From the NCBI GenBank assembly GCA_030433005.1, contig JAUILQ010000002.1, forward strand, positions 1 through 64,000: DNA of 64,000 nt. The letters run 5' to 3'. A program made the position numbers and the translations under genes. Below are positions 20,216-37,891 of this stretch, in pieces. This DNA comes from Alphaproteobacteria bacterium. GTDB lineage: Bacteria; Pseudomonadota; Alphaproteobacteria; Kiloniellales; DSM-21159. Position 1 is the stretch's first letter, and each line of letters begins with the position of its first letter. The notes below the pieces were generated by a model that saw only the letters and a program-made list of their open reading frames with translations, did no database searches and had not been told where the DNA came from.

Positions 20216-21001
20216 GTGCGCATCGCGACCTGGAACGTCAACTCGCTGCGGCAGCGGCTGGACCACCTCGCCCGCTTCGTGCAGGCGCGCGCCCCGGACC
20301 TGATCTGCCTGCAGGAGACCAAGGTCGACGACAGCCTGTTTCCCGCCGAGGAACTCGCCGCGCTCGGCTATCCCCACCAGCAGCGCCGCGGCCAGAAGTC
20401 CTACAACGGCGTCGCCGTGCTCTCGAAGCAGCCCTTCCGCGCCACCGACCACCGCATCTGGTGCGAGCGCGACGACAAGCGCCACGTCAGCGTGGTGACC
20501 GACGGCGACTTCGAGGTGCATTGCTTCTACGTGCCCTCGGGCGGGCCTATTCCGGATCCGGAACGGAACGACAAGTTCGCCCACAAGCTGCAGTTCCTGG
20601 AGGAGATGGCGGCCTGGTCGAAGATCGAGGCGAAGGGCCGCAAGTGCCTGATCCTGGGCGATCTCAACGTCGCGCCGCTGGAGAACGACGTGTGGAACCA
20701 CAAGCGCCTGCTGCGCAGCGTCGGCCACACGCCCGGCGAATCCCAGCGCATCGCGGCGCTGCTGGAGGCGGGCCACCTGACCGACCTCGGCCGCCACTTC
20801 GTTCCGGAACCGGAACCGCTCTACAGCTGGTGGGGCTATCGCTTCCCGCAGTCCTTCGAGAAGAACTACGGCTGGCGGCTGGACCACGCGCTGGCCAGCG
20901 AATCCGCGCTTTCGGCCGTCACCGGGCTGGAGATCTTCAGCGAGAGCCGGACCTGGGAGCGGCCGTCCGACCACGTGCCGGTGATCGTCGACCTGGCCTG
21001 A
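20216..21001 (+). CDS. xthA: Exodeoxyribonuclease III (AP endonuclease)
   Basis: This 261-residue enzyme belongs to the exonuclease III family, which cuts DNA at abasic sites and trims 3' ends in base-excision repair. Family motifs in order: MRIATWNVNSLRQR, C-L-Q-E-T-K (metal Glu), G-D-L-N-V-A-P, W-W-G-Y-R, R-L-D-H-A-L-A, and S-D-H-V-P-V (catalytic His). The start is GTG with CAGGGGGA upstream. The gene follows the small-RNA terminator and probably has its own promoter near TAGCCT (20159-20164). Confidence 0.95.
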   Translation: MRIATWNVNSLRQRLDHLARFVQARAPDLICLQETKVDDSLFPAEELAALGYPHQQRRGQKSYNGVAVLSKQPFRATDHRIWCERDDKRHVSVVTDGDFEVHCFYVPSGGPIPDPERNDKFAHKLQFLEEMAAWSKIEAKGRKCLILGDLNVAPLENDVWNHKRLLRSVGHTPGESQRIAALLEAGHLTDLGRHFVPEPEPLYSWWGYRFPQSFEKNYGWRLDHALASESALSAVTGLEIFSESRTWERPSDHVPVIVDLA

Positions 21002-21056: not shown

Positions 21057-21500
21057 TCAGCCGCGCGCCTCGCGCAGCTGCTCGTTGGTCTTCTCCAGGC
21101 GGTGCGCCAGCACCCGCATGACCTCGATGGCGATCTCGGGGAAGTCGCTGACCATGCGGAAGAACAGGTCCTTGGTGATCTTGAGGGTGACGACCTCGCC
21201 GGTCGCCTGCACCGTCGCGGTGCGCGGGACGTCGATCAGGATGGCGATCTCGCCGACGATGTCGTTGCTGCCGACCGCCGCGACCCTCAGCGGCCCGTCG
21301 GCGGTGTCGATGACCACGTCCGCCTTGCCTTCGATGATGATGTAGGCGGCGTCGCCGGCGTCGCCCTGGCGGCACAGCGCCTGGCCGTCCTTGAAGACCA
21401 TGCGCTGGCTGGCGAAGGCCATCAGCTTGAGACGCGCCGGATCGATGTTGGCGAACAGCGGAATGCGCCGCAACGTCGCCACTTCCTGGTCCAGGCTCAT
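21057..21500 (-). CDS. Stand-alone cyclic nucleotide-binding domain protein
   Basis: This 147-residue protein is essentially one cyclic-nucleotide-binding beta-roll with a short C-terminal helix and no DNA-binding domain. The phosphate-binding cassette is intact: I-V-G-E-I-A-I-L-I-D-V-P-R-T-A-T-V (Glu for ribose, Arg for phosphate), so it should bind cAMP or cGMP. The ATG at 21500 is chosen, with GGAGAGG 5 nt before it; a GTG two codons earlier is also in frame. It is the second gene after the unusual ABC protein (70-nt gap, same strand), which suggests it regulates or reports on that protein. A membrane nucleotide cyclase lies at 34.6 kb. Confidence 0.88.
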   Translation of the reverse strand: MSLDQEVATLRRIPLFANIDPARLKLMAFASQRMVFKDGQALCRQGDAGDAAYIIIEGKADVVIDTADGPLRVAAVGSNDIVGEIAILIDVPRTATVQATGEVVTLKITKDLFFRMVSDFPEIAIEVMRVLAHRLEKTNEQLREARG

Positions 21501-21570
21501 CGGCACCTCTCCTTCGTCACCCGCACTTTCGATCCGGCGACGGAACGATCCGCCGCCCCGTCCCCTCGCC

Positions 21571-24285
21571 TCAGTCTTCGGCGAGCAGCAGCTTCAGGTC
21601 CTCGCTGCGCTCGCTGACCTCGGCGAAGCCGCCCTGGTCGAGCAGCCGCCCGGCGCGCATCACCAGCACCGTGTCGAAGCGCTCGGCCAGGGCCGCGCGC
21701 TCGATCGCCCAGATCACGCCGCGGCCCTCGCAGAGCGCCAGGATGTTGGCGACCAGCCGCGCCCGCGTCGCGCCGTCCATCACCGCCGTCGCCTGGTTGA
21801 TCACCAGAAGGTCCGGCCGCTTGAGCAGCGCGCGCGCGATCGCCGCCTTCTGGCGCTGGGTCGCCGACAGCCGCTTGCCGCCGACGCCGACCTCGAAGTC
21901 CAGCCCGACCGCGCAGACCGAGGGCCTGAGGCCGAGGCTGTCCAGCGTCTCGCGCACCGCCGTGCCGATCGCCTCCTCGGCGCCGGCCTGGCCATAGACC
22001 AGGCGGCCGAACAGCACGTTGTCGAGGATCGAGGCGGCGGCGTTGTAGGTGCCGGCGTCGTAGAACTCGACGGCGCCGGGGTCCTTGGCGCGCACCGCCT
22101 CGGCGATCAGGCGGCGCGCCTCGACGACGCCGGCCGCGAAGGCGTCGTCGACGAGGCCGAGGCGGTGGCGCGCCTCGATGTAGCGGAACGGCAGCGCCTT
22201 GAGCCGGCGCCGGTCCTCGGTCGGCAGCTGGTCGATGCCCCGCTGTTCCGCTCTCGTAACGAGCTGGCGGAACTCGGGCAGGTCGTCGGCGTCGATGAAG
22301 GAGAACTGCTCGAAGAAGGGATGGCCCGGCGGCAGGTCGGCGAAGATCTCGACCATGGTGCGGGCGATCGCCAGACCCTTCTCGCCGAGCAGCGCCGACA
22401 GGCCGGCGCGCTCCAGCGCGTCGCGGACCAGCGCGTTGTCGACCAGCGCCTCGGCGGCGTAGTCGGGCCGTTTCGGCGTGCCGAACAGCAGGTTCTCGGC
22501 GAGCGAGGCGTTGGCGTTGTAGCGCCCGGCGTCGAAGCGCACGACCAGGTCCTCGCGGTCCTGGTCGGCCAGCCGCCGGGCCAGGGCGTCGCGGGCCTCC
22601 AGCAGCCGCTCGGCGACGTCGGGCTGGGCGGCGGGATCGATCGCGCCGTTGAGGCCGAAGCGGTAGACGTCCTCCTCCAGGTCGACGGCCTCGAGAATCT
22701 CCAGGATGCGCGCCAGCAGCTCTTCGGGCCCGGAGCAGCCGGCCGCCTCGTAGTCGGTCCAGTCGGCCTCCAGGTGGAACAGCGAGTTGCCGGCCCGGCG
22801 GCTCTCGGCCAGCTGCGCCTTCCAGCGCTCGAGCGCCTCGGGGTCCTGCTCGGCCTCGCGCAGCGGACGGTGGCGCAGGCCGTAGACCAGATTGTCGCGC
22901 AGGGTCGTGGCGAAGAGGTAGGCGCTGGGATCGACATAGCCGATGCGCCGGCCGAGCAGCGCCTCCGGCATGTCCTGCACGTCCGTGCCGCCGATGCGGA
23001 TCTTGCCGCTGCTCGGCGGGAACAGCCCGGCGACCAGCAGCGTCAGGTGATCCTTGCCGCTGGTGCCGTCGCCGACCAGCGCGACGTGCCGGTCGAGCGG
23101 CAGCTCGAAGGTCACGGCGTCGACGTGGCGCACGTTGTTGTCGTCGATCAGCGACAGGCTCGAGACGGCGACCGCGCCGGCCAGCGCCGCGGCGGCGACC
23201 TCGGGGTCCTGGCGCTCCGGCTCCAGGATGTCGGTCGGCTGGAACTGCTCGATCACCTGGTCGTACTTGATCTGGACGTCGTTGCGCTGCTGCTCCCAGT
23301 TGATCAGGTCGCGGATCGGCCCCGGCAGGTCCTTGTAGGCGGCGATCACCGCGACCAGGGCGCCGATGTCGAGCTGGCCGTAGATCGCCAGCAGGCCGCC
23401 GCCGAGATAGAAGATGAAGGGCGTCAGCTGGCTCAGGAAGTTGTTGAGGAACTTGACGAAGAACTTGCGCTGGTAGATCTCGAAGCGGATGTCGAAGATG
23501 CGCCCGAGGCGGCTGGTCAGCTCGGCGCGCTCGTAGTTCGAGCCGTCGTTGGCGTGGATCTCGACGGCGCCGTCCATGACCTCGCCGATGCGCCCGGCGA
23601 GCTGGCGCGCGGTCAGCTGGCGCTGCTTGCCGAGGCGCAGGATCGGGATGCGCAGGCGCGGGATCAGCAGCGCCTGGATCAGCACGATGCCGCCGGCGAC
23701 CAGGCCGAGCCACAGCGACTGCGACATGATGAAGACCATCGCCGTGATCGCCTGGCCGCCCAGGAAGGCCGGCGTGACGAAGGCGTCGCCGATGAAGCCG
23801 CCGAGCGGCTCCACCTCGTCCTTGATCATGGTCGCGACTTCGGGGCCCTTCATGCGGCGCAGCTGGCCGAGGCGGAAGCGCAGCAGCCGGTCGGCCAGCT
23901 CGTAGCGCAGCCGGCGCAGCATGCGCTCGCCCAGGCGGCCCTTCGAGGTGTTGATGACGAACTTGAAGACGCCGTTGACGCAGACCAGCGCCAGGAACGC
24001 GAAGGACAGGAACAGCAGCGTGTCGACCTGGTCGAGGCGGAAGCCCTCGAACAGCAGCAGCGGCTCGCCGAACAGCGTCTCGCTCAGCGGCAGCTCGATG
24101 CGCCCGTGCACCGTGGTGTCGGCGATCGACTCGAAGCCCTGGCCCTGGATGCCCTCGTTGACGATCTGCTTGGGCAGGTTGAGCGACAGGAAATAGAACG
24201 GCAGCGAGACCAGCACGAGCAGCAGGATCGCCAGCTGGTCGCGCTTGCTGTGGCGCCAGACGTACTTGAAGAGATTCGGCTCCAT
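21571..24285 (-). CDS. Half-ABC transporter with degenerate, interrupted nucleotide-binding domain
   Basis: This 904-residue protein has an exporter-type membrane domain (about 15-345) joined to an ABC domain that is broken and degenerate. The Walker A-like loop is G405-D-G-T-S-G-K-D (Lys411 kept, Asp where Ser/Thr is needed). The Q-loop position reads Y-V-D-P-S. About 300 residues (470-770) then separate it from the signature L-S-A-T-Q (806-810). Walker B is L-L-V-I-N-Q (826-831), with Asn and Gln replacing the magnesium Asp and catalytic Glu. The H-loop His is also absent (A-I-E-R-A). ATP hydrolysis therefore looks impaired. Within the insertion, an 18-residue unit ending in N-L-L-F-G / N-V-L-F-G occurs twice (585-602 and 743-760). 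It is co-directional with the cyclic-nucleotide-binding gene and divergent from a glycosyltransferase gene. Confidence 0.85.
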   Translation of the reverse strand: MEPNLFKYVWRHSKRDQLAILLLVLVSLPFYFLSLNLPKQIVNEGIQGQGFESIADTTVHGRIELPLSETLFGEPLLLFEGFRLDQVDTLLFLSFAFLALVCVNGVFKFVINTSKGRLGERMLRRLRYELADRLLRFRLGQLRRMKGPEVATMIKDEVEPLGGFIGDAFVTPAFLGGQAITAMVFIMSQSLWLGLVAGGIVLIQALLIPRLRIPILRLGKQRQLTARQLAGRIGEVMDGAVEIHANDGSNYERAELTSRLGRIFDIRFEIYQRKFFVKFLNNFLSQLTPFIFYLGGGLLAIYGQLDIGALVAVIAAYKDLPGPIRDLINWEQQRNDVQIKYDQVIEQFQPTDILEPERQDPEVAAAALAGAVAVSSLSLIDDNNVRHVDAVTFELPLDRHVALVGDGTSGKDHLTLLVAGLFPPSSGKIRIGGTDVQDMPEALLGRRIGYVDPSAYLFATTLRDNLVYGLRHRPLREAEQDPEALERWKAQLAESRRAGNSLFHLEADWTDYEAAGCSGPEELLARILEILEAVDLEEDVYRFGLNGAIDPAAQPDVAERLLEARDALARRLADQDREDLVVRFDAGRYNANASLAENLLFGTPKRPDYAAEALVDNALVRDALERAGLSALLGEKGLAIARTMVEIFADLPPGHPFFEQFSFIDADDLPEFRQLVTRAEQRGIDQLPTEDRRRLKALPFRYIEARHRLGLVDDAFAAGVVEARRLIAEAVRAKDPGAVEFYDAGTYNAAASILDNVLFGRLVYGQAGAEEAIGTAVRETLDSLGLRPSVCAVGLDFEVGVGGKRLSATQRQKAAIARALLKRPDLLVINQATAVMDGATRARLVANILALCEGRGVIWAIERAALAERFDTVLVMRAGRLLDQGGFAEVSERSEDLKLLLAED

Positions 24286-24515: not shown

Positions 24516-25733
24516 ATGAGGGAAGGCCGCGACGGCGTGCGCATACTCGTCTACAGCCACGACTCCTTCGGCCTGGGCCACCTGCGGCGCTGCCGCGAGA
24601 TCGCGCACGCCCTGGTCGAGGCCGACAGCGACCTCTCGGTCCTGATCCTCTCGGGTTCGCCGATCATCGGCAGCTTCGATTTCCAGAACCGCGTCGACTT
24701 CGTGCGCATACCCGGCGTCATCAAGCTGCGCGACGGCGACTACGTCTCGCTCAAGCTGCCGCTCGACGTCGAGCAGACGCTGGCGCTGCGCGCCTCGATC
24801 ATCAAGCACACCGCCGACATCTTCGACCCCGACCTGCTGCTGGTCGACAAGGAGCCGCTGGGCCTGCGCGGCGAGGTCGCGCCGACGCTGGAGCTGCTGC
24901 GCGCGCGCGGCGTGCCCTGCGTGCTCGGGCTGCGCGACGTCATGGACGACCCCGAGCTGCTGGCCAGCGAGTGGGCGCGCAAGAACGCGCTGCCGGCGCT
25001 CGAGCGCTACTACGACGACATCTGGGTCTACGGCCTGCCGCAGATCTGCGACCCGCTGGAGGGCCTGTCGGTGCCGGCCGGCGTGCGCAAGCGGGTCAGC
25101 TACACCGGCTACCTGCGCCGGGCGATCTCGGAGCACGCCCCCGAGGTCCAGCTCGAGAAGATCAGCGAGCCCTACGTTCTGGTGACGGTCGGCGGCGGCG
25201 GCGACGGCGAGCAGATCGTCGACTGGGTGCTGCGCGCCTACGAGAGCGACCCGCGCATTCCCCATCCGGCGCTGATCGTGCTCGGCCCCTTCATGGGCTC
25301 CGAGCTGCAGAGCGACTTCCTGCGCCGGGTCAACCGCCTGGACAAGGTCGAGGCGATCACCTTCTCGGCCCATCTCGAAAGCCTGATGGCGCGGGCCGTT
25401 GGCGTCGTCGGCATGGGCGGCTACAACACCTTCTGCGAGGTCCTGTCCTTCGACAAGCGGGCGATCATCGTGCCGCGCCAGGAGCCGCGCCGCGAGCAGC
25501 TGATGCGCGCGACCCGCGCCCAGGAGCTCGGCCTGCTGCGCATGCTCGACGACCAGGGCCGGCGCGACCCGCAGGCCATGGCGACGGCGCTGCGCAACCT
25601 GCCGCAGCAGTCGAAGCCCTCGGAGCGGGTCGTGCCCGGGCTGCTCGACGGCCGCAAGTCGGTGGTGCGCCTCGCCCGCCACCGCGTCGCCCAGGGCCGC
25701 CACCGCCCGCTCTCGGCCGCCCAGCTGTCCTGA
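24516..25733 (+). CDS. Glycosyltransferase, MurG-like GT-B fold
   Basis: This 405-residue protein has the N-terminal S-H-D-S-F-G-L-G-H-L-R-R (about 14-25), a glycine-rich acceptor loop of the MurG type. In the C-terminal half are V-T-V-G-G-G-G-D-G, then G-V-V-G-M-G-G-Y-N-T-F-C-E, where GT28-like enzymes bind the UDP-sugar (G-G-x-N-T plus Glu). Sugar and acceptor are unknown. It is a paralogue of the gene at 28187, sharing the G-x-G-H-L-R-R start. It is divergent from the degenerate ABC protein (230-nt gap). A possible promoter (TTGGCA, then CATAGT) lies about 50 nt before the start. A GGGGGG purine run precedes the ATG. Confidence 0.85.
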   Translation: MREGRDGVRILVYSHDSFGLGHLRRCREIAHALVEADSDLSVLILSGSPIIGSFDFQNRVDFVRIPGVIKLRDGDYVSLKLPLDVEQTLALRASIIKHTADIFDPDLLLVDKEPLGLRGEVAPTLELLRARGVPCVLGLRDVMDDPELLASEWARKNALPALERYYDDIWVYGLPQICDPLEGLSVPAGVRKRVSYTGYLRRAISEHAPEVQLEKISEPYVLVTVGGGGDGEQIVDWVLRAYESDPRIPHPALIVLGPFMGSELQSDFLRRVNRLDKVEAITFSAHLESLMARAVGVVGMGGYNTFCEVLSFDKRAIIVPRQEPRREQLMRATRAQELGLLRMLDDQGRRDPQAMATALRNLPQQSKPSERVVPGLLDGRKSVVRLARHRVAQGRHRPLSAAQLS

Positions 25734-25820: not shown

Positions 25821-27062
25821 ATGCCGCGACTCGCCGTCTTCCTGAAGGGCTACCCGCGCCTGTCCGAGACCTTCATCGCCCAGGAGATCCTGGCGCTGCA
25901 GCGCGCCGGCATCGAGCTGGAGATCGTCTCGCTGCGCCGCCCGACCGATCTGGCGAGCCACCCGGTGCACCGCGAGATCACCGCGCCGCTGCGCTACCTG
26001 CCGGAGTACCTGCACGAGGCGCCGCTCAGGGTGCTGAGCGGCTGGCGCCGGGCCCGCCGCCTGCCCGGCTACCGCGCCGCCCGCCGGCGCTTCCTCGCCG
26101 ACCTGCGCCGCGACCCGACGCGCGGCCGCCTGCGCCGCTTCGGCCAGGCCTGCGTCGCCGCGGCCGAGCTCGGCCCGGAGACCGAGCGGCTCTACGTCCA
26201 CTTCCTGCACACGCCCGGCTCGGTCGCGCGCTATACCGCGCTGCTGCGCGGCCTGCCCTGGGCGGCCTCGGCGCACGCCCGGGACATCTGGACGACGCCC
26301 GAGTGGGAGAAGCGCGAGAAGCTGGCCGAGCTCGACTGGCTGGTCACCTGCACCGCGGTGGGCCGCGACCACCTGGCCGCGCTGGCGCCGGATCCCGGCC
26401 GGGTGTCGCTGCTCTATCACGGGCTCGACCTCTCGCGCTTTCCGCCGCCGCCGGGCCAGCGGCCGGCGCGAGACGGGGCCGACCCGGGCGATCCCGTGCG
26501 TCTGCTCTCGATCGGCCGGGCCGTCGAGAAGAAGGGCTACGACGACCTGCTCGACGCGCTGGCGCGCCTGCCGGAGACCCTGTCCTGGCGGCTCACCCAC
26601 ATCGGCGGCGGCGCGCTCGCCGATACCCTCAAGCGGCGCGCCGAGGCGCTCGGCCTGTCGGGGCGCATTGTGTGGCTGGGCCCGCGCGCCCAGGAGGAGG
26701 TGATCGCGGCCTGCCGCGCCGCCGACCTCTTCGTCCTGGCCTCGCGCGAGGCCGGCGACGGCGACCGCGACGGCCTGCCCAACGTGCTGATGGAGGCCCA
26801 GAGCCAGGGCCTGGCCTGTCTCTCGACGCGCTTTTCGGCGATTCCCGAGCTGATCGTCGAGGGCGAAACCGGCCGCCTGGTGCCGCCGCGCGACCCGGCC
26901 GCGCTCGCCGAGGCGCTGGCCGGCCTGATCGCCGACCCGGCCGAGCGCGCCCGCCTCGGCGCCGCCGGCGCGGCGCGGGTGCGCAAGGCCTTCGACTTCG
27001 AGTCCAACGTCGCCCGCCTGGTCGAGCGGCTGGCGCCGCGTACCCAGATCGCCGCCGATTAG
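25821..27062 (+). CDS. Glycosyltransferase family 4
   Basis: This 413-residue GT-B enzyme has an N-domain beginning F-L-K-G-Y-P-R-L-S-E-T-F-I (about 7-19), typical of exopolysaccharide GT4 transferases. Its C-domain shows the nucleotide-sugar motif (R-L-L-S-I-G-R-A-V-E-K-K-G-Y) and the E-x7-E region G-D-R-D-G-L-P-N-V-L-M-E-A (about 314-326). It probably transfers a sugar from a nucleotide donor to a growing surface glycan or glycolipid on the cytoplasmic side. It is the second glycosyltransferase of the cluster, 87 nt after the first. The ribosome-binding site is poor. Confidence 0.87.
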   Translation: MPRLAVFLKGYPRLSETFIAQEILALQRAGIELEIVSLRRPTDLASHPVHREITAPLRYLPEYLHEAPLRVLSGWRRARRLPGYRAARRRFLADLRRDPTRGRLRRFGQACVAAAELGPETERLYVHFLHTPGSVARYTALLRGLPWAASAHARDIWTTPEWEKREKLAELDWLVTCTAVGRDHLAALAPDPGRVSLLYHGLDLSRFPPPPGQRPARDGADPGDPVRLLSIGRAVEKKGYDDLLDALARLPETLSWRLTHIGGGALADTLKRRAEALGLSGRIVWLGPRAQEEVIAACRAADLFVLASREAGDGDRDGLPNVLMEAQSQGLACLSTRFSAIPELIVEGETGRLVPPRDPAALAEALAGLIADPAERARLGAAGAARVRKAFDFESNVARLVERLAPRTQIAAD

Positions 27063-27086: not shown

Positions 27087-28190
27087 ATGCGCGTCGCCTT
27101 CCACGCCCCGCTCAAGCCGCCCGACGACCCCGTGCCCTCGGGCGACCGCGCCATGGCGCGCCGCCTGCTGCAGGCGCTGCGGCTTGCCGGCCACGAGGTG
27201 ACCCTGGCCAGCCGGCTGCGCAGCCGCGATCCCGCCGGCGATCCGGCCCGCCAGCGGCGCCTGCAGGCGCTCGGCGCCCGGCTCGCCGAGCGCTACTGCA
27301 CGGCGGTCGAGCAGGGCCGCCGGCCGCGGCCCGACCTCTGGTTCACCTACCATCTGTACTACAAGGCGCCGGACTGGATCGGCCCGGCGGTCAGCCGGCG
27401 GCTCGGCATCCCCTACCTGGTCGCCGAGGCCTCGGTCGCGCCGAAGCGGGCCGGCGGCGCCTGGGACCTCGGCTTCCGCGCGACCCTCGAGGCGCTGGAC
27501 CAGGCGGCCGTCGTGCTGCCGATCAATCCGGCGAACATCGCCTGCCTGCCGGACCCCGCCAAGCTGCGGGACCTGCCGCCCTTCCTGGACGCCGCCCCCT
27601 ACCGGACGGCCGTCGCCGCGCGCGCACGCTGGCCGGCGCTCGACTCCGCGCAGCCCTGGATTCTGGCCGTCGGGATGATGCGCCCCGGCGCCAAGCTCGC
27701 CTCCTACCGGCTGCTCGTTGCCGCCCTGGAACGGCTCGCGGGCCAGGCCTGGCAGCTGCTCGTCGTCGGCGACGGCCCGGCGCGCGGCGAGGTCGAGTCG
27801 GCCCTGGCACCGCTCGGAGAACGCGTCGTGCTGGCCGGCGCGCTGGACGACGAGGCCCTCGCCTGCGCCTACGCCAGCGCCGACCTGCTGGCCTGGCCGG
27901 CGATCGACGAGGCCTACGGCATGGCCCTGCTCGAGGCCCAGGCGGCGGGCCGGCCGGTCGTCGCCGGCCACGGCATCGGCGTCTCCGCGGTGGTCGCCGA
28001 CGGCGAGACGGGATTGCTGACCGGTCGCGACGACCCGGCGCTGTTCGCCGCCGACCTGGCCCGACTGCTCGACGATCCGGCGCTGCGCGCCCGACTCGGC
28101 GCGGCAGCCGCCCGGCGCGTAGCGGCGCGCCACGACCTGCCGGCCGCGAGCCGCCGCCTCGACGCGATTCTGCGGGAGCTGGCGGCGTGA
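27087..28190 (+). CDS. Glycosyltransferase family 4
   Basis: This 367-residue GT-B enzyme starts MRVAFHAPLKPPDDPVPSGD, with the N-domain loop (P-S-G-D-R) used for acceptor binding. In the C-domain are I-L-A-V-G-M-M-R-P-G-A-K, L-L-V-V-G-D-G-P, and A-W-P-A-I-D-E-A-Y-G-M-A-L-L-E-A with the GT4 E-x7-E residues. The sugar is unknown. The stop overlaps the GTG of the next transferase by 4 nt, so the two are translationally coupled. Confidence 0.87.
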   Translation: MRVAFHAPLKPPDDPVPSGDRAMARRLLQALRLAGHEVTLASRLRSRDPAGDPARQRRLQALGARLAERYCTAVEQGRRPRPDLWFTYHLYYKAPDWIGPAVSRRLGIPYLVAEASVAPKRAGGAWDLGFRATLEALDQAAVVLPINPANIACLPDPAKLRDLPPFLDAAPYRTAVAARARWPALDSAQPWILAVGMMRPGAKLASYRLLVAALERLAGQAWQLLVVGDGPARGEVESALAPLGERVVLAGALDDEALACAYASADLLAWPAIDEAYGMALLEAQAAGRPVVAGHGIGVSAVVADGETGLLTGRDDPALFAADLARLLDDPALRARLGAAAARRVAARHDLPAASRRLDAILRELAA

Positions 28191-29413
28191 CGGGGGCGCC
28201 GACGGGGAAGGCGAGCGACGGCCTGCTACTCTGGGTCACCCACCTGTTCGGCATCGGCCACCTGCGGCGCGCCGCGGCGATCGCCCTCGCCTGCCGCGCG
28301 CAGGGGCTGCCGGTGACCCTGGTCTCCGGCGGCCGGCCGGTGCCCCGGCTGGCCGAGACCCTGAGCGAGGCCGGCGTCGCCTTCGCGCAGCTGCCGGCCC
28401 TGCACACCCGCGACGGCGACTTCCGCAGCCTGCTCGACGACGCGGGCGCGCCGGCCGGCGAGGCGCTGCTGGCCGAGCGGCGGCGGCGGCTGCTCGCGCT
28501 GCTCGAGGCGCGCCGGCCGGCGGTCGTGATGACCGAGATGTACCCTTTTGGCCGGCGCGTGCTGCGCGCCGAGGCCGAGGCCCTGCTCGCCGCCGCGCAG
28601 GTCGCCTGGCCGCGGCCGGCGCTGCTCGCCTCGGTGCGCGACCTGCTGGTCGCCAAGCCGGCCGAGCGCCAGCGCTGGATGCTGGACGCTGCGGCGCCCT
28701 TCGACGAGATCCTGGTGCATGGCGACCCGACGCTGCTCGCCTTCGAGGAGAGCTTCGCCTTCGTCGAAGAGCTGGGCGACCGGCTGCGCTACACCGGCTA
28801 CGTCGTGACGCGGCCGGACCCGGAGGCCGCCGGGGCCGAGCCGGAGGCGGGCCGCGACGAGGTGCTGGTCTCGGCCGGCGGCGGCGCTTTCGGCCTGCGG
28901 CTTCTGGAGACCGCCCTGGCCGCCCGGGCGCTCTGTCCGCGGCTCGGCGCGCTGCGCTGGCGCCTGCTGCTCGGCCCCAACCTGCCGGCCGCGGCGGGCG
29001 AGCGGCTGCGCGCCGCGGCCGACGCCGGAGGGGCGGCGGGCGTGGTCGTCGAGGCAGCCCGGCCGGACTTCCCGGCCCTGCTCGGGCGATGCCGCTTGTC
29101 GATCAGCCAGGCCGGCGTCAACACCCTGCTCGAGGCTCTGGCCGCCGGCGCGCGCAGCCTCGTCGTGCCCTACGCCGAGGCCGGCGAGACCGAACAGGCG
29201 ACGCGCGCCGCCCGTTTCGCCGCGCGCGGCTGGCTGTCGGTGCTCGACGAGGCGGCGCTGTCGCCGGCGCGCCTCGCCGAGGCCGCAGAGGCCGCGGCGG
29301 CGCGGGCGCGACCGGGCGTCGCGATGAATCTCGACGGCGCGCGCCACTCGGCCGAGATCGTGGCGCAGAGGACTGCTATAGTGCGCCGCGCTGCTGGCAG
29401 GGAGGAAGGATGA
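28187..29413 (+). CDS. Glycosyltransferase, MurG-like GT-B fold
   Basis: This 408-residue protein is paralogous to the gene at 24516. It opens L-L-W-V-T-H-L-F-G-I-G-H-L-R-R-A-A-A-I, and later has VLVSAGGGAFG and L-S-I-S-Q-A-G-V-N-T-L-L-E-A, the donor-binding G-x-N-T plus Glu. The start is GTG at 28187, overlapping the previous stop (GTGA) with GGGAG 8 nt upstream. Its stop overlaps the next ATG (ATGA). The chain of overlaps shows these genes are made together. Sugar and acceptor are unknown. Confidence 0.85.
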   Translation: MTGAPTGKASDGLLLWVTHLFGIGHLRRAAAIALACRAQGLPVTLVSGGRPVPRLAETLSEAGVAFAQLPALHTRDGDFRSLLDDAGAPAGEALLAERRRRLLALLEARRPAVVMTEMYPFGRRVLRAEAEALLAAAQVAWPRPALLASVRDLLVAKPAERQRWMLDAAAPFDEILVHGDPTLLAFEESFAFVEELGDRLRYTGYVVTRPDPEAAGAEPEAGRDEVLVSAGGGAFGLRLLETALAARALCPRLGALRWRLLLGPNLPAAAGERLRAAADAGGAAGVVVEAARPDFPALLGRCRLSISQAGVNTLLEALAAGARSLVVPYAEAGETEQATRAARFAARGWLSVLDEAALSPARLAEAAEAAAARARPGVAMNLDGARHSAEIVAQRTAIVRRAAGREEG

Positions 29414-29961
29414 GCGCGGCGGTGACCGACTTCTACCGCTACCCGCCGAACCGACTGGTCGGCGACTACCTGCGCTCCGGCGTGGGCGTCGCCTTTGGAT
29501 TGGCCGTGCTGCTCGCCGCCGATTCGGTGACCTGGGTGATGGCGCTGATCTTCGGCGGCCTCGCCCTCGCCTTCTCGGCCTTCGGCCTGCGCACGGTGCG
29601 CCAGCACCTGACCGAGGTCGCGGTCAACGACGAGGGCATCTACACGCGCAGCGTCACCGGCGCCCGTGCCCTGCCCTGGGACCAGCTCACCGCGCTGCGC
29701 CTGCGCTACTTCGGCAGCCACCGCCAGCGCAAGAGCCGCAGCGGCGGCTTCCTCGAGCTGACGCTGCAGGGTCCGGAGCAGCGCCTGAAGCTGGAGTCCT
29801 CGATCGCCGGCTTCCGCGACATCGCCTGGTGGTCGGCGCGCGCCGCGCGGCAGAACGGGCTGTCGATCGACCCGACGACCGCCGGCAACCTGCTGGCCAT
29901 CGGCATCGACGCGGACAGCGAGACGCCGCGGCCGGTCAGCGACCCCGATTTCGAGATCTGA
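29410..29961 (+). CDS. Membrane-anchored PH-like domain protein
   Basis: This 183-residue protein has two membrane segments (about 24-62), then a soluble beta-rich part (V-N-D-E-G-I-Y-T-R-S-V-T-G-A-R-A-L-P-W-D-Q-L) that reads like a bacterial pleckstrin-homology domain. No enzyme motif is present. It starts at an ATG overlapping the stop of the MurG-like transferase, behind GGGAGGAAGG, so it belongs to the glycosyltransferase operon. It could be a scaffold for glycan synthesis, but this is inference. A TATAGT at 29377-29382 may be an internal promoter. Confidence 0.6.
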   Translation: MSAAVTDFYRYPPNRLVGDYLRSGVGVAFGLAVLLAADSVTWVMALIFGGLALAFSAFGLRTVRQHLTEVAVNDEGIYTRSVTGARALPWDQLTALRLRYFGSHRQRKSRSGGFLELTLQGPEQRLKLESSIAGFRDIAWWSARAARQNGLSIDPTTAGNLLAIGIDADSETPRPVSDPDFEI

Positions 29962-29972
29962 GCGGGGATGCG

Positions 29973-31874
<1,902 letters not shown>

Positions 31875-31886
31875 GGGGTACGCGGG

Positions 31887-32885
31887 ATGCTGGCCTATAC
31901 CCTGCGCCGCCTGCTCATGATGGTGCCGACGCTGCTGGTGATCTCCTTCATCATCTTCGTCATCATCCAGCTGCCGCCGGGCGACTACCTGGAGACCTAC
32001 ATCGCCGAGCTGCAGGCCCAGGGCGAGGCCGTCGACCCGGCGAAGATCGAGTTCCTGCGCCAGCAGTACGGCCTCGACAAGCCCTTCCTCGAGCAGTACT
32101 TCCTCTGGGTCTGGGGGCTCGTGCAGGGCGACCTGGGCTACTCCTTCGAGTACCGCCTGCCGGTCTCGGACGTCGTCGGCGACCGCCTGCTGCTGACCGT
32201 CGTGGTCGCCACCGCCTCGATCGTCTTCACCTACCTCGTCGCCTTCCCGATCGGCGTCTACACCGCGGTCAGGCAGTACTCGCTGGGCGACTACACGCTG
32301 TCCTTCATCGGGCTGCTCGGCTTGGCGACGCCGAACTTCCTGCTCGGCCTGATCCTGCTGCACCTCGCCTACGAGTGGTTCGGCACCTCGATCGGCGGGC
32401 TCATGGATCCCGAGTACATCAACCAGCCCTGGTCTCTCGCCAAGGTCGGCTCCGTGCTCGCGCATCTCTGGGTGCCGGTCGTGGTGATCGGCACGGCCGG
32501 GACGGCGGCGATGATCCGCCGGCTGCGCGCCAACCTGCTCGACGAGCTGGAGAAGCAGTACGTCGTCACCGCGCGGGCCAAGGGCGTCCCGCCGGTGCGC
32601 CTGCTGTTCAAGTACCCGCTGCGCCTGGCCATCAACCCCTTCATCGCCGACATCGGCAACCTGCTGCCGCAGGTGATCTCCGGCGCGGCCGTGATCTCGG
32701 TCGTGCTCGACCTCAACACCACCGGGCAGATGCTGGTCACCGCCCTGCAGAGTCAGGACATGTACCTCGCCGGCTCCTTCCTGATGTTCCAGTCGATGCT
32801 GGTCGTCGTCGGCGTCTATCTCTCCGACATCGCGCTGGCCGCGCTCGACCCGCGCATCCGCCTGACCGGGGGAGCGACGAAATGA
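31887..32885 (+). CDS. ABC transporter permease, DppB/OppB type
   Basis: This 332-residue inner-membrane permease has the family N-terminus (MLAYTLRRLLMMVPTLLV) and six membrane helices. The EAA coupling loop is L-R-A-N-L-L-D-E-L-E-K-Q-Y-V-V-T-A-R-A-K-G (about 213-233), which contacts the ATPase. GAGGGG lies 8 nt before the ATG. It follows the fused ATPase by 12 nt and overlaps the next permease by 4 nt (ATGA). Confidence 0.93.
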   Translation: MLAYTLRRLLMMVPTLLVISFIIFVIIQLPPGDYLETYIAELQAQGEAVDPAKIEFLRQQYGLDKPFLEQYFLWVWGLVQGDLGYSFEYRLPVSDVVGDRLLLTVVVATASIVFTYLVAFPIGVYTAVRQYSLGDYTLSFIGLLGLATPNFLLGLILLHLAYEWFGTSIGGLMDPEYINQPWSLAKVGSVLAHLWVPVVVIGTAGTAAMIRRLRANLLDELEKQYVVTARAKGVPPVRLLFKYPLRLAINPFIADIGNLLPQVISGAAVISVVLDLNTTGQMLVTALQSQDMYLAGSFLMFQSMLVVVGVYLSDIALAALDPRIRLTGGATK

Positions 32886-34084
32886 GCGACGGGATCGAGC
32901 GCGGCGACCGCCGCTCCCCGGAAGCGGATCCGCGCGCGCCGCTGCCGCACTGGGTCGACGAGGCGCCCTTCGACCCGCACGAGAGCGACGCCATGTCGCC
33001 CGAGCAGGAGCGCTACTACCTCGCCAACCAGTGGACCATCATGTGGTGGAAGTTCCGGCGCCACCGCCTGGCCATGGTCTCGCTCGGCGTGCTGCTGTTC
33101 TTCTACAGCTTCGTGCTGTTCGCCGAGGTGCAGGCGCCCTACGAGCTGCACAGCCGCCACACCGGCTTCATCTACGCGCCGCCGCAGGCCTTGCACCTGT
33201 TCCACGAGGGCGAGTTGGTCGGGCCCTTCGTCTACGGCTACGACCAAGAGCTCGACATGGAGACGCTGCGCCGCGTCTACACCTCGAACCCCGACAAGGT
33301 GCAGCCGCTGCGCTTCCTCTGCTCGGGCGACCCCTACGAGTTCTGGGGCTTGTTCGAGGCCGACTTCCACCTGTTCTGCCCGGCCGAGGGCGGCGAGGTC
33401 TTCCTGCTCGGCACGGACCGCCTGGGCCGCGACGTGCTGAGCCGGATCATCTACGGGGCGCGCATCTCGCTGACCATCGGGCTGATCGGCATCGCGCTGG
33501 CGCTCGTGCTCGGCATCGTCATCGGCGGCCTCGCCGGCTACTACGGCGGCTGGGTCGACAACGTCGTGCAGCGCTCGATCGAGATCATCCGCTCGTTTCC
33601 GGAGATCCCGCTGTTCATGACGCTCTCGGCGATCCTGCCGGTGACCTGGTCGCCGATCGGCGTGTTCTTCGGCCTGACCATCATCCTGGCCTTCCTGGAG
33701 TGGCCCGGGCTGGCGCGCGCCGTGCGCTCGAAGCTGTTCTCGCTGCGCGAGGAGGACTTCACCACGGCGGCGCAGCTGATGGGCGCCAGGCCGGCGCGGA
33801 TCATCGGCCGCCACCTGCTGCCCAGCTTCACCAGCCACCTGATCGCCTCGGCGACGCTGTCGATCCCGACGATCATCCTGGCCGAGACGGCGCTGTCCTT
33901 CCTCGGCCTCGGCCTGCGTCCGCCGGTAACCTCCTGGGGCGTGCTGCTGACCGAGGCGCAGTCGAGCTCGGTCATCAACGTCTATCCCTGGCTGCTGCTG
34001 CCAGGGGTGCCGGTCGTGCTGGTCGTACTCGCCTTCAATTTCCTCGGCGACGGATTGCGCGACGCGGCGGACCCCTACAAGTAA
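32882..34084 (+). CDS. ABC transporter permease, DppC/OppC type, with extended periplasmic loop
   Basis: This 400-residue permease has an N-terminal soluble tail of about 55 residues, a first helix (M-V-S-L-G-V-L-L-F-F-Y-S-F), then an unusually long loop of about 100 residues containing two Cys (L-C-S-G-D and L-F-C-P-A). The standard core T-D-R-L-G-R-D-V-L-S-R follows, with the EAA loop D-F-T-T-A-A-Q-L-M-G-A-R. It pairs with the DppB-type permease. The long loop suggests a special mode of substrate or binding-protein contact. Peptides or other bulky solutes are likely cargo. Confidence 0.92.
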   Translation: MSDGIERGDRRSPEADPRAPLPHWVDEAPFDPHESDAMSPEQERYYLANQWTIMWWKFRRHRLAMVSLGVLLFFYSFVLFAEVQAPYELHSRHTGFIYAPPQALHLFHEGELVGPFVYGYDQELDMETLRRVYTSNPDKVQPLRFLCSGDPYEFWGLFEADFHLFCPAEGGEVFLLGTDRLGRDVLSRIIYGARISLTIGLIGIALALVLGIVIGGLAGYYGGWVDNVVQRSIEIIRSFPEIPLFMTLSAILPVTWSPIGVFFGLTIILAFLEWPGLARAVRSKLFSLREEDFTTAAQLMGARPARIIGRHLLPSFTSHLIASATLSIPTIILAETALSFLGLGLRPPVTSWGVLLTEAQSSSVINVYPWLLLPGVPVVLVVLAFNFLGDGLRDAADPYK

Positions 34085-37051: not shown

Positions 37052-37891
37052 TCACGGCGAGAGGGTCATGCCCTCGCGCGCCACGACCGTGCCCGGCCGC
37101 GCCGCCTCCGCGGCCTCGGCGACGGCGTCCATGAAGCCGTCGTCGTGCGAGGGGTCGTGATGGAAGATCGCGAGCCGGGCGCCGGCGGCCTCGGCGAGGC
37201 GCACGCCCTCCTCCCAGGTCGAGTGGCCCCAGCCGCGGTAGCGCGGATACTCGGCGTCGGTGTAGCTGGAATCGTAGATGACCAGATCGGCACCCTCGAT
37301 CAGCCCGAGGACGGTCGCGTCGAGCTCGCCTTCGCGGTGCTCGGTGTCGGTGACGTAGCAGATCGCCCGGCCGTCGTACTCGACCCGGTAGCCGCAGGCC
37401 CCGTTGGGGTGGTTGAGCGCGGCGGTCTTCAGGGTCACCCCGGGGCGCGGGGTCAGGGTCTGGCCGCAGTCGAAGTCGACGAAGCTGCAGTCCGCGGCGA
37501 AGATCGTCGGCGGCACCGGGAACAGCGGCGCCGACATGAACTTGCAGAGCACGTGGTGCAGCTCGAGGCCCGGCTCCAGGTGACCGGCGTGCAGGCGGAT
37601 GCGGTTGCGCTTGTCGAACAGCGGCCCGAAGAAGGGCACGCCGGCGATGTGGTCGATGTGCGTGTGGGTCAGGAAGATGTCGAAGTCGAGCCCGTCGGGC
37701 CCGCAGTCCTTGGCCAGCTTCTGGCCGAGCGGCCGCAGTCCGGTGCCGGCGTCGAAGATCAGCAGCTGTCCGCCGCAGCGCACCTCCAGACAGGAGGTGT
37801 TGCCGCCGTAGCGGCTGTAGTCCGGGCCCGGGCAGGCGATCGAGCCGCGGACCCCCCAGAAGGTGACGGAGAAATCGTCTGTGCCGCTCAC
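37052..37891 (-). CDS. Metallo-beta-lactamase-fold hydrolase
   Basis: This 279-residue MBL-fold enzyme has zinc residues H76-T-H-I-D80-H81, with further ligands expected in A-L-N-H-P, D-S-S-Y-T-D and I-F-H-H-D-P-S-H-D-D. The opening F-W-G-V-R-G-S-I-A-C-P-G-P and Y-G-G-N-T-S-C-L-E-V are typical of the group often labelled PDE- or RNase Z-like, acting on phosphodiesters or cyclic nucleotides. The reaction is not certain. The start is GTG 37891 behind GGGGAC. It heads a pair with the methyltransferase gene. Confidence 0.85.
   Translation of the reverse strand: MSGTDDFSVTFWGVRGSIACPGPDYSRYGGNTSCLEVRCGGQLLIFDAGTGLRPLGQKLAKDCGPDGLDFDIFLTHTHIDHIAGVPFFGPLFDKRNRIRLHAGHLEPGLELHHVLCKFMSAPLFPVPPTIFAADCSFVDFDCGQTLTPRPGVTLKTAALNHPNGACGYRVEYDGRAICYVTDTEHREGELDATVLGLIEGADLVIYDSSYTDAEYPRYRGWGHSTWEEGVRLAEAAGARLAIFHHDPSHDDGFMDAVAEAAEAARPGTVVAREGMTLSP

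Follow-up and report, generated by a model that had tools for sequence, protein, structure and literature searches.

An ABC exporter fold that lost its ATPase motifs, linked to a cyclic-nucleotide-binding protein in alphaproteobacterial glycosyltransferase loci

What can an ABC exporter do once the residues for ATP hydrolysis are gone and a cyclic-nucleotide-binding protein is encoded next to it? This question is raised by two neighbouring minus-strand genes in the window, the whole 64,000-nucleotide stretch of alphaproteobacterial DNA analysed here, which named relatives place close to Rhodovibrionaceae/Kiloniellales. The larger gene (21571..24285, minus strand; 904 amino acids, in the following called pseudo-ABC) encodes an exporter-type membrane domain (TMD) and a catalytically dead, expanded nucleotide-binding domain (NBD). 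The second gene (21057..21506, minus strand) lies 64 bases downstream and encodes a stand-alone cyclic-nucleotide-binding domain (CNBD) of 149 amino acids. Both reading frames and the exporter-like membrane domain had been recognized in an earlier inspection of the letters alone (the sequence-only reading), and Pfam agrees, with matches to ABC_membrane (40.9 bits) and, as two separated stretches, to ABC_tran (51.6 bits). The AlphaFold model of the whole pseudo-ABC protein reached a pLDDT of 86.9 and a pTM of 0.81, and its nearest PDB structures found by Foldseek were P-gp, MsbA, PCAT1, TM287/288 and TmrAB (E-values down to 4.6e-17). By these three lines (Pfam above cut-off, AlphaFold, Foldseek), pseudo-ABC has the type IV (MsbA-like) ABC exporter fold, sharing the six-helix TMD, the coupling loops and the NBD fold with half-transporters of the MsbA/PglK/PCAT type (Pfam/NCBIfam, structure). 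A channel domain of the kind present in cyclic-nucleotide-gated cation channels was not found in pseudo-ABC with Pfam or Foldseek, the membrane domain being ABC_membrane. In the genomes that carry it, the protein is labelled no more specifically than “ABC transporter ATP-binding protein”.

The sequence-only reading had reported changes in four ATPase motifs, each of which holds for this gene. In the first half of the pseudo-NBD (residues 366-480; 22846..23190, minus strand), Walker A reads GDGTSGKD and ends in K-D (residues 405-412; window 23050-23073), and the Q-loop, YVDPSAY, lacks its Gln; the coupling-side motif TLRDNLVYG follows at residues 461-469. The second half (residues 796-890; 21616..21900, minus strand) contains LLVINQ at the position of Walker B (window 21793-21810) and an H-loop, AIERAAL, without the His (residue 862). 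It also carries LSATQ instead of the signature LSGGQ, a loss that had been overlooked. The combination of GKD, N-Q and LSATQ with neither Q nor H is not the motif set of an ATP-driven pump and, judged from its sequence, pseudo-ABC cannot be an ordinary one.

We then asked whether these substitutions are fixed across the family. Among 186 homologous sequences, a set that includes duplicates as some were fetched twice, none had the complete motif set. LSGGQ was absent from all 186, and Walker A Lys with Ser/Thr, Walker B Asp, the catalytic Glu and the H-loop His never occurred together; the most canonical members keep four of seven diagnostic features. A count over 133 sequences gave Glu or Asp right after the Walker A Lys in 117, Asn in place of the Walker B Asp in 106 and an H-loop His in only 19. 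Of 18 sequences of a canonical half-exporter from the same genomes, 16 passed a simple motif screen; at least one of the 18 is cut short by the end of its contig. Pseudo-ABC was matched at E ≤ 1e-60 in 131 of 385 sampled genomes of the class Alphaproteobacteria, about a third. Full-length homologues with 55-84% identity were present in most genomes of the order, and nearly all close relatives have a fixed length of 902-905 amino acids. Because of this fixed length and the recurrence of the losses in all 186 homologues, the motif loss goes beyond chance. The motif comparison thus confirmed that the losses are family-wide, more general than the sequence-only reading could see, and no local drift. 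Pseudogene-like decay of an ordinary transporter would account for single motif positions that differ between lineages, but it is at odds with a reading frame that stays open and constant in length throughout an order and outside it, with the strong constraint on the TMD and with the lack of any homologue with intact motifs. Ordinary drift is ruled out, for all practical purposes, by the family-wide fixation together with the inverted conservation described below.

The loss of hydrolysis leaves room for ATP to be bound and to act together with a cyclic nucleotide in a ligand-gated switch, similar to CFTR or SUR. Binding without hydrolysis is conceivable because the Walker A Lys persists in 115 of the 186 sequences; the Walker A Gly residues are likewise retained in many members, and AlphaFold predicts the P-loop fold with high confidence. 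However, Ser/Thr has been exchanged for Asp/Glu at the Mg/phosphate position, the remaining 71 sequences, including those of Sinorhizobium meliloti and Rhizobium leguminosarum, have lost the Lys, and the A-loop position shows no conserved aromatic residue across the family. We therefore consider an ATP-bound switch rather unlikely.

Well-known heterodimeric exporters such as TM287/288 and BmrCD have one degenerate site, and pseudo-ABC could be such a degenerate half, paired with an ATP-hydrolysing half-transporter encoded elsewhere in the genome. A canonical half-transporter adjoins pseudo-ABC in a few lineages (L153, L154 and L159), but no conserved half-transporter neighbour was found around it in 33 loci and 20 longer stretches, in which the neighbourhood is otherwise conserved. 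In such a pair, moreover, the working site depends on an intact LSGGQ contributed by the degenerate half, and Walker A is wholly absent from many members, including more distant ones. With LSGGQ in no member and no conserved partner gene, we rejected this explanation as quite improbable.

In 24 pseudo-ABC sequences, mean identity was 79% in the TMD and 55% in the NBD core (ratio 1.44), whereas the canonical exporter of related genomes showed 61% and 72%, respectively (ratio 0.85; 17 sequences). The pattern of pseudo-ABC is the inverse of that of the canonical exporter, with the TMD far above the NBD. The TMD (residues 1-348; 23242..24285, minus strand) is the best-conserved part and contains the near-invariant stretches KDEVEPLGGFIGDAF (residues 155-169) and AAYKDLPGPIRDL (residues 315-327). 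Across 46 diverse sequences, conservation was highest in intracellular loop 1 with the start of TM3 (residues 113-136 and 147-168) and in TM6 (residues 318-348), and among the lowest in the ATP-site segments. Cytoplasmic loops are better conserved than the outer halves of the transmembrane helices. Two motifs, KDEVEP-x-GGF and KDLxxP, persist from the window as far as Sinorhizobium and Azospirillum, and roseobacters have them in altered form.

The two halves of the pseudo-NBD are separated by about 300 residues between the Q-loop and the signature region, which the sequence-only reading had missed. The insert proper (residues 481-725; 22111..22845, minus strand) holds a repeat, YNANASLAENLLFG (residues ~561-640; window 22366-22605), and the conserved stretch MVEIFADLPPGHPFFEQFSFI. 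A second copy of the repeat, YNAAASILDNVLFG (residues 726-795; 21901..22110, minus strand), leads into the signature region. The segments 545-660 and 690-815 are mutually homologous (hhalign P 5.6e-14) around the motif Y-N-x-x-A-S-L-x-[ED]-N-[LI]-L-F-G. Exporters have this motif behind their Q-loop, and its counterpart in the window is TLRDNLVYG; the stretch of residues 430-560 around the latter (repeat 1) matched repeat 3 only weakly (P 0.03). We claim two clear repeat copies plus a third related stretch. By the repeat homology and the motif loss, the NBD has multiplied its helical side, which faces the membrane, and its catalytic side has decayed. In ABC exporters, this helical region touches the TMD at its coupling helices. 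The repeat insert, the higher conservation of the TMD than of the NBD, the CNBD partner and the lack of a functional ATPase motif set in every member separate pseudo-ABC from the MsbA/PglK/PCAT exporters.

The next gene had been described as encoding nothing but a cyclic-nucleotide-binding domain with its phosphate cassette, and cNMP_binding (PF00027, 66.4 bits) is indeed its sole Pfam domain. The cassette, VGEIAILIDVPRTATV (window 21210-21257), follows the pattern G-E-x(8)-R. Among 169 CNBD sequences, Gly85 was present in 168, Glu86 in 153 (Asp in 12, as in some fused roseobacter CNBDs) and Arg95 in 167. The PRTAT cassette is compatible with predicted cAMP or cGMP binding. The fold and the cassette are shared with CRP/FNR regulators, which differ by their DNA-binding domain. 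We rejected a function of the CNBD protein as a transcription factor of this type, since its 149 amino acids contain no HTH and PF00027 is the only domain. Some records annotate the CNBD gene as a Crp/Fnr regulator.

The association of the two genes is close to universal. The CNBD gene lies adjacent, downstream and on the same strand in all 24 close relatives and in about 129 of 133 loci overall; of the latter, 103 were called directly and 26 showed an overlap only because the comparison used stop-to-stop frames, L120 among them being uncertain. It is also present next to pseudo-ABC in all 33 named loci that extend 9 kb or more to either side. An adjacent CNBD was lacking in L125, L109/L132, L134, L156 and the very divergent L151/L185. 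In another group of genomes (L145-L150, L155, L158 and L160), the C-terminus of pseudo-ABC runs in frame into the CNBD, giving proteins of 1018-1133 amino acids, and C-terminal fusions also occur in Azospirillum, Ruegeria and Sulfitobacter. Mapped on the TMD tree, the fusion label required three changes, two of which are forced by well-supported branches; the apparent exception L182 turned out to be a truncated locus. The fusion occurs in at least two lineages.

Divergent to the pair lies a plus-strand operon, which the sequence-only reading had proposed as a possible client. It begins with a GT28-like glycosyltransferase family gene (24516..25733), followed by two GT4 glycosyltransferase genes (25821..27062, EpsE-like, and 27087..28190), a second GT28-like gene (28187..29413, exact start uncertain) and a gene for a small membrane/PH-domain (bPH_6) protein (29410..29961, start inferred). 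A double-NBD ABC ATPase of the Opp/Dpp type whose motifs are intact (29973..31874, start inferred) precedes an Opp-type permease (BPD_transp_1, 31887..32885); a second permease, read in a different frame, ends near 34081. On the minus strand, an adenylate/guanylate cyclase-like protein (PF00211, 34592..35998) is a possible source of cyclic nucleotide. The link to this operon is real and conserved. Within the 33 named loci, the first GT28-like gene was found in 32, the two GT4 genes in 30 and 31, the second GT28-like gene in 32 and the Opp-type ATPase in 31. When 20 further genomes were read 20 kb outward, 18 had the entire divergent operon, often accompanied by a histidine phosphatase and a polysaccharide deacetylase. 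A nucleotide cyclase occurred within 20 kb in 10 of these 20 and is not near pseudo-ABC in every genome. Rhizobium and Sinorhizobium have the genes all in one direction, in the order cyclase, (lyase), Opp ATPase, SBP, two permeases, GT, GT4, GT, pseudo-ABC and CNBD. A literature search for the R. etli names redA/redB returned no relevant paper.

The Sinorhizobium arrangement leads to a locus with a phenotype. The S. meliloti phazolicin-protecting polysaccharide (PPP) cluster spans smb21252-smb21271 and is induced under Myxococcus predation; by Tn-seq, nine genes of the stretch protect against phazolicin, and the cyclase gene cyaA also scored (PMC10128002, PMC10315480). Resistance needs the cluster, is lost in mutants and is attributed to a polysaccharide (PMC10128002). 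The S. meliloti pSymB record has a sulfotransferase gene (SMb21249 in PMC5498481) and, behind the Opp permeases, a gene for a GT family protein (smb21265 in PMC10128002). Counting the genes between these two anchors gave smb21269-smb21270 as the approximate position of the pseudo-ABC and CNBD genes, which falls within the PPP cluster. The Sinorhizobium pair would therefore belong to the PPP locus by gene order and annotation, not by locus tags. Its operon and the PPP cluster share the order cyclase, Opp importer, glycosyltransferases, pseudo-ABC and CNBD, and the window holds a gene set of the PPP type, arranged divergently where that of Sinorhizobium is co-directional. The excerpts of PMC10128002 and PMC10315480 do not discuss the pseudo-ABC and CNBD genes or the ATPase loss. 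An early guess that the S. meliloti pseudo-ABC is SMb20813 was dropped, as the literature gave only unrelated mentions.

Relatives of the TMD also exist on their own. In six genomes examined, we found stand-alone TMDs without an NBD (about 394-457 amino acids; in the best cases 42-44% identical to the TMD of P0001), encoded in operons with a CopI-like cupredoxin, the CopA-type multicopper oxidase and CopB for copper resistance. They form one clade on the tree (100/100) with long branches. This supports the idea that the TMD lineage of pseudo-ABC needs no ATPase of its own.

Taken together, we favour, with a probability of about 0.5, that the gene pair is a cNMP-controlled gate or scaffold for surface-glycan assembly that works independently of ATP hydrolysis. 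The exporter-fold protein would have given up ATP hydrolysis for good in favour of control by a CNBD subunit, encoded separately or fused to its C-terminus. The linked cyclase, or another one, would make cAMP or cGMP, which would bind the CNBD. In a putative complex of the two proteins, the CNBD would then act on the pseudo-NBD, whose multiplied helical/coupling motif may still dock on the coupling loops of the TMD, and the state of the TMD would change as a result. The TMD would serve the adjoining surface-glycan cluster, either as a scramblase-like gate for a lipid-linked sugar intermediate or as a membrane platform for the glycosyltransferases. The earlier suggestion of a sensor, channel or scaffold switched by cAMP or cGMP appears well motivated in this light.

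The gate idea draws on the lack of another obvious glycan translocase in the conserved core and on the existence of the NBD-less sisters. In its most specific form, alphaproteobacterial polysaccharide loci would encode cyclic-nucleotide-gated scramblases or gates for lipid-linked glycans that work without ATP hydrolysis, the copper-operon sisters having discarded the NBD; we offer this tentatively. The platform idea is its main rival. In that case, the protein would be purely a scaffold or sensor in the membrane: the TMD would move nothing, and the complex would anchor the CNBD there and allosterically switch the glycosyltransferases or the Opp-type transporter, as SUR does with Kir6. The dead ATPase, the better conservation of cytoplasmic loops than of outer helix halves, the CNBD linkage and the strict synteny with glycosyltransferases are all consistent with it. 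The copper-operon relatives, however, keep the TMD alone, with neither NBD nor CNBD, in a context of periplasmic copper handling, which suggests that the TMD itself acts across the membrane. We regard a pure scaffold as possible but doubtful.

Eukaryotic ABC proteins used as a regulator or channel are exemplified by SUR1/2, which regulate Kir6 channels, and by CFTR. They share with pseudo-ABC an exporter fold turned non-pump and one or more degenerate nucleotide sites, but they continue to bind ATP, at sites that are wholly or partly intact, and have unrelated regulators, whereas pseudo-ABC has lost all sites and has a CNBD attached. HetC of Nostoc, the best-known exporter with a CNBD, likewise combines an exporter fold with a cNMP-type domain. 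Its N-terminal CNBD is required in vivo and binds ppGpp, not cAMP; the protein also carries a C39 peptidase, and the catalytic Glu of its ATPase is indispensable (PMC10986499). HetC shows that such a domain may have a ligand other than cAMP or cGMP. In contrast to HetC, with its essential ATPase, pseudo-ABC has a dead one, and its CNBD is separate or C-terminal. No description of such a pseudo-ABC/CNBD pair was found in the literature searched. If the proposed mechanism is true, a bacterial ABC exporter fold was turned into a device controlled by a second messenger, and the pair suggests a possible purpose for the nucleotide cyclase in these operons. Genetics for this system are ready in S. 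meliloti and R. leguminosarum, and the known phenotype is a polysaccharide barrier against an antimicrobial peptide.

Downstream of the gene for the stand-alone cyclic-nucleotide-binding domain (CNBD) lies an exodeoxyribonuclease III-like gene (Exo_endo_phos; window 20216-21001) in convergent orientation. This convergent neighbour is conserved in 25 of the 33 named loci with at least 9 kb on both sides of the gene encoding the pseudo-ABC protein, an exporter-fold protein with degenerate ATPase motifs. In the lineages L153, L154 and L159, the pseudo-ABC gene is adjoined by a canonical-looking ABC half-transporter of 648 to 751 amino acids.

Near the nucleotide cyclase gene of the window we found a metallo-beta-lactamase-fold gene (window 37052-37891), which also occurs in many related loci; the Sinorhizobium cluster likewise contains a gene of this fold. 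For the Opp-type importer of the cluster (window 29973-34081), no recognisable substrate-binding protein gene was found in the window, and the same holds for several Kiloniellales. In Rhizobium and other lineages, a substrate-binding protein gene sits between the Opp ATPase and permease genes.

The pseudo-ABC copy of Rhodovibrio sodomensis (L049) possesses K-S, the Walker B Asp and the H-loop His, and lacks the catalytic Glu and LSGGQ. Three very divergent members of 863 to 880 amino acids (L151, L185 and L186) retain the repeat region of the degenerate nucleotide-binding domain (pseudo-NBD), their transmembrane domain (TMD) is strongly diverged, and no CNBD was detected for them. A Methylobacterium plasmid record yielded a partial match of a similar kind. 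Close kin of the pseudo-ABC TMD are ABC_membrane proteins without an NBD (L235-L240; for example L239:5516-6727 and L236:5829-7010); in copI-copA-copB copper-resistance operons, their gene comes fourth.
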